Below are positions 45,381-54,367 of a stretch of 64,000 bases of DNA, piece after piece. The number at the start of each line of letters is the position of its first letter. Position 1 is the first letter of the stretch. The position numbers and the translations under genes were made by a program. The stretch is from Sphingorhabdus sp. GTDB lineage: Bacteria; Pseudomonadota; Alphaproteobacteria; Sphingomonadales; Sphingomonadaceae. The notes under the pieces were generated by a model. That model was not told where the DNA came from. It did not search any database and saw only the letters and a program-made list of their open reading frames with translations. The stretch is taken from the NCBI RefSeq assembly GCF_029865925.1, contig NZ_JARXAI010000060.1:1-64000 (forward strand), given 5' to 3'.

Positions 45381-46148
45381 CTACGTCGCGGCTTCTTCGA
45401 CGCTTGCTGCTTTTTTACGGCGGCGGCGGGTGAACCAAATGGCGATGAGCGCCAGTTCGAACAGCAAGCATAAAGGGATGGCGAGCAGCAGCTGCGACAC
45501 AATGTCGGGCGGGGTCAGGACCGCGGCGATTGCGAACATGCCGACAATCGCATAACGGCGCGCGCCGCGCAGTTGTTCGAGCGTAACCAAGCCAGCGCGC
45601 TCCAACAACATAAGCAACACCGGCAACAAGAAGGAAATGCCAAAGCCGAAAATGAACTTCATGACGAAGCTCAAATAATTGTCGACGCCGGGCAGCGCCT
45701 CTTGCTGGACACCGCCAACTGTGCCGCCAAAACCAAGCAGATATTTCAGCGCGACGGGTATCGCCATATAATACGCCATGGCCGCGCCCAGGAGAAAGAG
45801 CACTGGCGTGGCGAGCAAGAACGGCAAAAACGCGTTTTTTTCCTTATTGTAGAGGCCAGGCGCCACAAAGCGCCACAATTGCGTCGCGAACACCGGAAAG
45901 GAAAAGAAGGTCGCGGCAAAAAATGCGACTTTGATCTCGACAAAAAACGCCTCGAATATCGCAGTATAAATGAGCTTGGTTTGCCCCGATGCGAGCAAAG
46001 GCTGCACCAGAAATCCGAAAATCGGCCGCGCGAAATACAAGCTTGCGGCAAACGCAGCGGCAAGCGCGAGAAAGCTCCAAAGCAAACGCGTGCGCAGCTC
46101 AATCAAATGATCGAGCAAGGGCATTTTGCTGTCGTCGATCTCGCTCAT
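45381..46148 (-). CDS. tatC: Sec-independent protein translocase TatC
   Basis: MPLLDHLIELRTRLLWSFLAL; SFPVFATQLWRFVAPGLYNKEKNAFLPFL. Confidence 0.96.
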   Translation of the reverse strand: MSEIDDSKMPLLDHLIELRTRLLWSFLALAAAFAASLYFARPIFGFLVQPLLASGQTKLIYTAIFEAFFVEIKVAFFAATFFSFPVFATQLWRFVAPGLYNKEKNAFLPFLLATPVLFLLGAAMAYYMAIPVALKYLLGFGGTVGGVQQEALPGVDNYLSFVMKFIFGFGISFLLPVLLMLLERAGLVTLEQLRGARRYAIVGMFAIAAVLTPPDIVSQLLLAIPLCLLFELALIAIWFTRRRRKKAASVEEAAT

Positions 46149-48223: not shown

Positions 48224-49269
48224 GCCGCGCCAGTTGCTCCATCCGTTAGCTTGGCGCTTGCATCGGCCAGCGCCAGCAATTGGTCGCGCTTATCGAGCAG
48301 ATGAGCCAACCGGTCGGGGTTAAATGCCACCGGCGGCAGGGCCATCGCACGGTCAAGCCGGGTGCGCGCAGCGGCGGTAATTTCTGGAAGATTATTGGCA
48401 ATCGCAACCATCTCGTCAAACCGGCCCCAGCAATTGAGTGCAAGGTCGCAACCGGCCACGACACATTGCAGGGCGCGCGTCGCAACATCGCCCTGCAACG
48501 CGTTCATATCGAGATCATCGCTCATCAACAGGCCGTCGAACCCAAGCTGCGCGCGGATGATCGTGTCGATAACAATGGGTGACATGGTGGCTGTGTGCTG
48601 ATCGTCCCAGACGTCATAAACAACATGCCCTGTCATACCCATTGCGGCGTGATTCAACGCGCGGAAGGGGGCAAGGTCCTGTGCAAGTTCAGCCGCAGTC
48701 GCGGTGACATGCGGCAAATCATGATGGGTGTCGACATTGGCGCGGCCCTGCCCCGGCATATGCTTCACCACGCCAATGACGCCGCCCAAAGCAAGGCCGT
48801 CTAGGATTGCGCGGCCAAGCGCCGCCACGCGCAGTGGTTCACTGCCCAAGGCGCGGTCGCCAATGGCGGAATGTGTTTCGGGCACGCGGACGTCAAGCAC
48901 GGGTAAGCAATCGACGTTGATGCCGACTTCGTTGAGCGACAGCGCAATAGCCTCTGCATTGCACCGCGCGGCCTCAATCGCGGTGATGGGCGCGATGTCG
49001 TACAGCGCGTCGAATGCGCCGCCAGCGGGAAAGTCAGGCCAGACCGGCGGGCGCATACGTGCAACCCGTCCGCCCTCTTGATCAATCAGAATCGGCACCG
49101 TGTCGCGGCCATGCAAGGTCCGCAAGCTGTCGGTCAACGCGCGGACCTGCGCTTTGTCTTCGATATTGCGTTTGAACAGGATGTAGCCTGCTGGCTCGAC
49201 ATCGCGAAACAGGCGTTTTTCGTCATCCGTCAGGGTCAGGCCCGATAGGCCAAAAATTACCGGCTTCAT
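48220..49269 (-). CDS. nagZ: Beta-N-acetylhexosaminidase (GH3)
   Basis: PILIDQEGGRVARMRPP; VGVVKHMPGQGRANVDTHHDLP-like region (IGVVKHMPGQGRANVDTHHDLP); LLMSDDLDMNAL. Confidence 0.94.
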   Translation of the reverse strand: MKPVIFGLSGLTLTDDEKRLFRDVEPAGYILFKRNIEDKAQVRALTDSLRTLHGRDTVPILIDQEGGRVARMRPPVWPDFPAGGAFDALYDIAPITAIEAARCNAEAIALSLNEVGINVDCLPVLDVRVPETHSAIGDRALGSEPLRVAALGRAILDGLALGGVIGVVKHMPGQGRANVDTHHDLPHVTATAAELAQDLAPFRALNHAAMGMTGHVVYDVWDDQHTATMSPIVIDTIIRAQLGFDGLLMSDDLDMNALQGDVATRALQCVVAGCDLALNCWGRFDEMVAIANNLPEITAAARTRLDRAMALPPVAFNPDRLAHLLDKRDQLLALADASAKLTDGATGAA

Positions 49270-53000: not shown

Positions 53001-53122
53001 ACAGGCTAATCCTTGGGGTTCTTAAGCTTGGGTCGCGGGCGCGAAACGTGCCTTCGTCCTTATCCGCCCATCGCGGCCTGCGCAACAGGGGAAAGGTCTT
53101 GGCGGATGCAGCGACTTTATCC

Positions 53123-53387
53123 AGGGTCATGACCACTTAAATTCAACTTCGAGGCGTCAAAATGGCAAAGATATCGAAATAAAATGTTCGCCGCAGGCAG
53201 TTATTCTGCCTGCAAGGGCATTTTACTTTGAGATCGAAGCCATTTTGACGTCCTTCGGATTTGACCCATTTTGTCCATTGCATCGTTGGCAAAGCGCGAC
53301 TTAGAAACACTAAGTCTGCACTTTGCCGCCTTGCACTGAACAAAATGGTCTCAAACCTCGGAGTTGAATTTAAGTGGTCATGACCCT
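53123..53387. mobile_element. MITE-like non-autonomous element with 31-32 bp TIRs and two internal long hairpins
   Basis: Left GGGTCATGACCACTTAAATTCAACTTCGAGG (53124-53154) versus right CCTCGGAGTTGAATTTAAGTGGTCATGACCC (53356-53386): 30/31 complementary, plus A53123/T53387. Internal hairpin 1: CGTCAAAATGG(53155-53165)/CCATTTTGACG(53240-53250) with tip GCAGGCAG-ttatt-CTGCCTGC. Hairpin 2: CCATTTTGT(53266-53274)/ACAAAATGG(53340-53348), GGCAAAG/CTTTGCC, tip GACTTAG-aaaca-CTAAGTC. No convincing ORF. Confidence 0.7.
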
Positions 53388-53401
53388 AAAGACCATTACA
53401 C

Positions 53402-54367
53402 ATGACTGAACAATCGCTCCCTAAGAAATCGCTTCGGCTGCTTCTGGCCGCGCCACGTGGATTTTGCGCGGGCGTTGACCGCGCCATCAAGATTGTCGAG
53501 CTTGCGCTCGAACAGCATGGCGCGCCTGTCTATGTCCGACATGAAATCGTCCACAACCGTTATGTGGTCGACAGCCTGAAAGCCAAAGGCGCGATATTTG
53601 TCGAAGAACTCGATGAAGTACCCGATGGCGGCCATGTGGTATTTTCTGCGCATGGCGTGCCAAAATCAGTGCCCGCCAATGCACAACAGCGCGGCCTTGC
53701 CTATTTTGACGCCACATGTCCTCTGGTTTCGAAAGTCCACAAGCAAGCCGAACGGCAAGTTGAAGCCGGCCGTCACATCATCTTTGTGGGCCACGAAGGG
53801 CATCCCGAAGTCATCGGCACATTTGGCCAAGTGCCACCCGGGGCGATGACATTGGTTGAAACTGCCGATGACGCGCGCTTGATTGAACCTGCCGATGCCA
53901 ACAATCTTGCGTTTCTGACGCAAACGACTTTGTCGGTCGATGATACATCAGAAATCGTATCGGTCCTTCAACAGCGCTTCCCCAATATCGTCGGGCCAAA
54001 GGGTGAGGATATTTGTTACGCTACGTCCAACCGCCAAGAATCGGTCAAGGCGATTGCGCATGAATGCGACCTTGTCCTTGTCATCGGCGCACCCAACAGT
54101 TCGAACTCGCAGCGTTTGGTTGAGGTTGCGGCCCGATCCGGCACCAAGGCCTATCTGGTGCAGCGCGCGGAAGAGATTAGCCTGAATTGGTTCGACGATG
54201 TCCGCACGCTCGGCTTGACCGCAGGAGCCTCTGCCCCTGAAGTGTTGGTGCGCGAGATTATTGACGCGCTCGCGCTGCATTTTGACATGGATGAACAGCA
54301 GGTCACAACCGCTGAAGAGACTGTCACGTTCAAACTGCCACGCGAACTGGCTGGCGCGGCGAACTGA
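53402..54367 (+). CDS. ispH: 4-hydroxy-3-methylbut-2-enyl diphosphate reductase
   Basis: [62 protein letters not shown]. Confidence 0.97.

Follow-up and report, generated by a model that had tools for sequence, protein, structure and literature searches.

MITEs are usually regarded as insertion sequences that have lost internal DNA and whose remaining interior is idle, and REP/RAYT elements are palindromes of 20-40 bp with a tag that are moved by a Y1 transposase. The bacterial MITEs that insert at TA, namely Correia/NEMIS, ERIC/IRU and RUP, are typically about 100-200 bp long with one or few hosts each, and RUP is probably mobilised in trans by IS630-Spn1 (PMC2229807). The same review presents the CIR repeats of Caulobacter and Brucella as arms joined by a linker, with a GANTC motif in the loop, and describes no terminal inverted repeats (TIRs) for them. 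MITEPye1 of Paracoccus yeei (PMC11578231) is 159 bp long, has 4-bp direct repeats and IS1182-type ends, and belongs to one species.

Here, we set these systems beside an element that lies directly upstream of ispH in a window of 64,000 nucleotides (the whole stretch of DNA analysed) from Sphingorhabdus sp. Judged from sequence comparison, positions 53122-53388 of this window hold an inserted mobile DNA transposon of the non-autonomous kind, which is a MITE if that term is used broadly.

The element at ispH and its mobility

The element occupies 265 bp (53123-53387) and is bounded by TIRs of 32 nt which are complementary at 31 of 32 positions (97%), the left one (53123-53154, plus strand) forming the 5' side of a closed stem and the right one (53356-53387, plus strand) its 3' side. 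Three arms are predicted to rise from this stem, all read here on the plus strand: arm 1, an imperfect hairpin of 96 nt (53155-53250, pairing 53155-53186 with 53219-53250); a central mini-hairpin of 9 nt, TCC-TTC-GGA (53251-53259), which is helix 5 of the covariation analysis; and arm 2, a second imperfect hairpin of 96 nt (53260-53355, pairing 53266-53282 with 53332-53348), which holds the best-conserved internal-loop segments of the family. As single-stranded DNA the two strands fold with energies of -92.9 and -94.3 kcal/mol (z -16.5 and -17.8), as RNA the z-score is -18.2, and none of 200 dinucleotide shuffles folded as well on either strand. Direct sequence comparison and a fold z-score of about -17 thus bear out the original prediction of a 265-bp element with 32-bp TIRs around two long hairpins; its three-stem, Y-shaped architecture holds for the closed stem and the two hairpins but had missed the mini-hairpin as a third arm. 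The palindrome said to lie in each tip, GGTCATGACC, is indeed found at both ends, but it is a local variant: the left tip reads AGGGTCATGACC where the family consensus is AGGGTCAGGACC, and the family tip is GGTCAGGACC/GGTCCTGACC. Likewise the octamer CAAAATGG/CCATTTTG does occur four times within the element but is no class-wide feature, the near-invariant interior positions lying mostly elsewhere and above all in arm 2. Two more one-mismatch tips stand in the window, at 45511-45522 and 49232-49243, and tip matches with at most two mismatches number 12 there against 2.7 expected.

A scan of the interior (53123-53387) gave no credible ORF, and the right end lies 14 nt from the ATG of ispH (53402-54367, plus strand, 321 aa), which is outside the element; both points agree with what had been predicted. 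The name of the gene follows the original reading of the sequence and its conserved start. The Shine-Dalgarno sequence of ispH is weak, as had been remarked, but the insertion is not the cause, because element-free sister species read TAAAGGC or TAAAGAA at the same place. The element is probably part of the ispH mRNA leader as a side effect of its insertion, and given its position a putative effect on ispH expression is plausible.

By DNA similarity, matches were found in 31 of 45 Sphingorhabdus genomes, many of them exactly 265 bp long and about 74-92% identical, with up to about a dozen or more copies per genome that diverge from one another by about 2-14% and that are flanked by unrelated DNA at their other sites. 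The genome studied here has one full copy, one 46-bp remnant and a few solo tips. The same kind of similarity search found no match in 56 genomes outside the genus. A pattern search of genome contigs with 22 bases of the window TIR gave no match. Of the 45 genomes of the genus, 44 have an ispH orthologue. The TA site upstream is empty in 27 of the 29 listed genomes in which it could be read to the TA, including the nearest relative, G017, whose ispH is 98% identical. There and in nearly all the others (G041, G006, G026 and G003 among them) the empty site reads ..TTTATC-TA-AAG.. or a near variant, and the window reads ..TTTATC-CA-[GGGTC..GACCC]-TA-AAG; the element therefore inserted in a TA that was duplicated, and the left copy (53122-53123) has since mutated to CA whilst the right copy (53387-53388) is intact. 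No target-site duplication had been obvious when the window was considered by itself. The element, then, is short and free of a transposase gene, has TIRs that match those of an autonomous element, a TA duplication, empty sites and dispersed copies in the genus, features by which a MITE is recognised. The original prediction of a non-autonomous transposable element is supported by both of the tests proposed with it, which turned up many full-length copies with different flanks in related genomes and a vacant ispH site in relatives down to the nearest. A plausible parental type is an IS5-family insertion sequence with the same ends.

Among the genomes listed, only G034 is also occupied at the ispH TA, by a related copy. 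Tip changes shared by the two copies speak for a single ancestral insertion followed by many precise losses, but the empty sites in between favour two independent insertions at one TA. Elsewhere, different species carry copies at the same chromosomal site that differ in orientation or length (L039 in G007, L053 in G019 and G026:C23:74280; also L076/L095 and L070/L090/L096), so that one TA may have been hit more than once, or copies may have been inverted via the TIRs. Short copies recur at fixed sizes in G034, G003, G010, G015, G023, G008 and G026, at about 205 bp (without most of the arm 1 tip) and also at 179, 184 and 160 bp, as if short forms also spread. In one copy (L082, G037:C309:2814-3078) the inner part of arm 2 appears by eye to be inverted relative to other copies (a reverse match of 144-226), and another (L294, G026:C12) is interrupted, at a TA of its arm-2 loop, by an IS630 element whose ends are ATACCAACC..TTGGTA. 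The tip AGGGTCAGGACC is found far above chance, often alone as (C)TTAGGGTCAGGACC(C)TA(AG), in G026, G034, G016, G042 and others as well as in the element's own genome (C80:31431-31448), and G026 has 193 exact occurrences of the 12-base tip. Such solo tips resemble what nearly precise excision, by deletion between short repeats at both ends, would leave behind, and they also look like a record of earlier insertions.

One layout, differing tips

A pattern made up of the two 12-base tips and their spacing only retrieved at least 120 stretches, all from Alphaproteobacteria among the matches listed, with lengths mostly of 263-270 and a few of 275-279. After removal of the outer 40 bases, 85 of 123 interiors, members of Sphingorhabdus itself included, matched a profile built from the genus with scores above a cut-off that 1% of dinucleotide shuffles reached. 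Forty members with mutual identity below 80% could be aligned end to end. In these, 90.3% of cells pair on the predicted structure compared with 34-45% in slid controls, 78 of 91 pairs have changed on both sides, and covariation scores 0.646 against 0.09-0.15 for slid and 0.18 for shuffled alignments. The structure was derived from the same 40 sequences and is to that extent favoured over its slid versions, but a gap this large, replicated outside the alignment, is more than such a bias would explain. Within arm 2 the stems vary and the near-invariant segments, TTGAAA and TTCCTGC, are partly unpaired. Inspection by eye pointed to a possible loop-loop contact of the two arms (GGAG/CTCC), for which there was no clear covariation.

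Further relatives were sought with R1, a covariance model confined to arm 2 and the mini-hairpin and applied at E <= 0.001 per genome, at which fewer than one false genome is expected, the E-values being rough. Matches were obtained in 31 of 385 genomes of the class and in 93 of 399 Pseudomonadota genomes. Since neither the tips nor arm 1 are part of R1, their pairing is largely independent evidence, even though the ends were picked as the best inverted repeat near each match; a minority of matches gave no clear inverted repeat at the expected places. Folded individually, the elements have a layout near 32/96/9/96/32 (stem/arm/mini-hairpin/arm/stem) and median z-scores of -11 to -13, and the three-arm junction appears in 33/40, 17/20 and 10/19 members, most of the listed remainder being without the mini-hairpin only. 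In elements from outside the class, one arm weakly resembles an inverted copy of the other (0.43, compared with 0.32 when shuffled), and one out-of-class element has relatives in Vibrio campbellii and V. tritonius. In many of the elements the tips are quite different, examples being TAGGCCATGGACTC, TAGTGTGGTGCGCGG, AGAGCATGATGACACC and ATACCAAAGG within the class and TATACCCAAGT, GGGCGTGTTTATC and CTAGTGTCCCGTC outside it. Some resemble IS630 ends, such as the TAGAGCATGATGATATT in which an IS630 element of G205 ends, but IS630-like tips and the IS630 element were seen in different genomes and not together in one. Going by this comparison of layouts, the ispH element is a member of a large family across Pseudomonadota that shares one layout and has differing tips (IS5-type, IS630-like and others).

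Helper transposase and the nature of the constraint

The flanks of 118 class-wide copies give the target consensus Y-TA-R, with CTAG the commonest. An element of 836 bp on a viral contig (L297, 1732-2567) has the ends CT|AGGGTCAGGACCTATTAATTT and AACGAGTCCTGACCCT|AG and two overlapping frames that match IS4/IS5-family transposase domains; from these frames and the TA target we judge it to be an IS427-like member of the IS5 family. Its relatives are frequent on plasmids, where they fill 582 records, and come most often from Rhizobium. The copy on pNGR234a has the same tips, that of R. etli a one-base variant, and in G034 a transposase remnant ends in a tip of the AGGGTCAGGACC type. An IS5-family insertion sequence with the same tips and TA target is thus the probable helper of the element. 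In several genomes rich in copies, transposases of the IS5 type (PF01609) and of the IS630 type (PF13358) are both missing, and the helper there is absent or of another type. An IS630 transposase (PF13358) as the helper for the AGGGTCAGGACC tip, by analogy with RUP and Correia, was rejected, because the IS630 of copy-rich G026 has other ends, which the tips of the window element do not match. We also set aside G026:C2:75-1401 as a longer transposon bearing the tips: by eye, its inner frame resembles an oxidoreductase gene and not a transposase. In IMG/VR, a 268-bp element (L298:8316-8583) and the 836-bp insertion sequence are both found on contigs classified as viral, and phages or prophages may be carriers that spread both.

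A fold selected as RNA tolerates G.U but not A.C. Class-wide, the two stand at 137:104, and at 75:80 in well-paired columns, whereas RNase P from the same class, treated by the same procedure, gives 293:19. Because the two are nearly balanced, the fold is probably constrained as DNA, and the best fit is a constraint that acts on DNA or equally on the two strands. There is a G.U excess in arm 1 (77:36) and in the close copies of the genus (232:42), which could also indicate a role as RNA; over the class as a whole, no excess that would prove an RNA was found.

Taken together, these data lead us to what we consider the probable account: the MITE inserted at the ispH TA would have been helped by an IS5-type transposase, with the fold of its family selected as DNA and its tips changing with the transposase. 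An IS5-type transposase would recognise the tips and mobilise the element in trans. The fold would be selected on either strand and act whenever the element becomes single-stranded, as it might on the lagging strand or during entry of DNA into the cell. Pairing of the two ends in the single strand would create one double-stranded end, and the arms would offer their conserved internal loops to a putative binding protein, a contact that may help the element to transpose or to survive. For the family to persist, its tips would change on both sides at once to fit whichever TA-targeting transposase is present. We put forward more tentatively, and as a proposition less likely than not to hold, that this is a phylum-wide mobile class set by its single-stranded DNA fold (32/96/9/96/32) and not by its ends, the fold being inherited and functional and the ends changing in concert for successive, unrelated TA-targeting transposases of the IS5 and IS630 types. 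The short copies that lack most of arm 1 and recur in several genomes mean that the full fold is not strictly needed for spread.

If the fold had no function, the element could be an ordinary MITE derived from IS5 in which mutation maintains the internal pairing, quasi-palindrome template switching copying arm onto arm. Matched changes affect the two TIRs of even single copies, G.U and A.C are nearly balanced, as would be expected from a DNA-level process, and shortened copies continue to spread, all of which agrees with such an origin. We nevertheless regard it as unlikely, given that the internal loops are unpaired and conserved class-wide, though correction between arms should erase them, and that neither the total length nor that of the arms changes across the phylum despite unrelated tips.

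We find it improbable that the element is instead a mobile structured RNA, transcribed as a leader, a trailer or on its own, with the RNA fold selected, for instance as an RNase III site, a terminator or a protein-binding RNA. The class-wide G.U:A.C ratio is far from that of RNase P, even if the RNA z-score of -18.2 and the excess in arm 1 and in the genus copies are what such an RNA would give. By a simple ORF rule, 104 copies have two flanking genes, of which 44 are between convergent, 49 between co-directional and 11 between divergent genes; the co-directional share of about half and the place of the ispH element at the expected leader position would suit such an RNA, but relative to the co-directional genes 22 copies are on the same and 27 on the opposite strand, with no clear preference, although an RNA read alike from both strands would fit this too. 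Nor is there an Rfam family: at E up to 1 the window gave no credible match, the best being animal miRNA models far below their cut-offs, and at the gathering score the elements of ten other loci gave none.

A cis-regulatory RNA of ispH, fixed at the locus and not mobile, could be argued from the 14 nt to the ATG and the related G034 copy at the same TA, but is refuted to near certainty by empty sites in nearly all other genomes of the genus, the 98% identical sister included, and by copies elsewhere that adjoin unrelated DNA; compensatory changes, named beforehand as its hallmark, are present anyway, since the fold is maintained within the mobile family.

Comparison with known systems

The open-access literature, searched by tip or core sequence, returned nothing relevant, and in what it offers, including the accessible portions of PMC2229807, of the prokaryotic MITE review PMC10969869 and of PMC11578231, we found no description of a phylum-wide MITE family with one measured fold and differing ends. 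The family is apparently undescribed so far; this comparison draws on open-access literature only, so individual members may already bear names.

With the IS5-family insertion sequence (IS427-like; the pNGR234a copy) the element shares the tips AGGGTCAGGACC.. and a TA inside a CTAG-like target, but the former is 836 bp long with a transposase, and there is no sign that the MITE interior derives from it. REP/RAYT appears to differ, judging from the element's 265 bp, long TIRs and TA duplication. CIR is likewise an alphaproteobacterial intergenic repeat of two arms with a conserved fold, but unlike CIR the element has TIRs; MITEPye1 is similarly a gene-free, folding alphaproteobacterial MITE but differs in size, repeats, ends and host range. 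Correia/NEMIS, ERIC/IRU and RUP are also small and gene-free, with TIRs, TA at the ends, a long stem-loop fold and probable mobilisation in trans. Unlike them, the present element has 265 bp and a branched fold whose arm lengths are fixed; its core is phylum-wide, and its tips vary from relative to relative. One covariance model would unite repeats otherwise described genus by genus, and the old question of what purpose the folded interiors of small bacterial repeats serve would become directly testable in laboratory strains. Here it is the interior that is the most persistent part, its length, fold and loop motifs being kept across Alphaproteobacteria and other Pseudomonadota whilst the ends differ.
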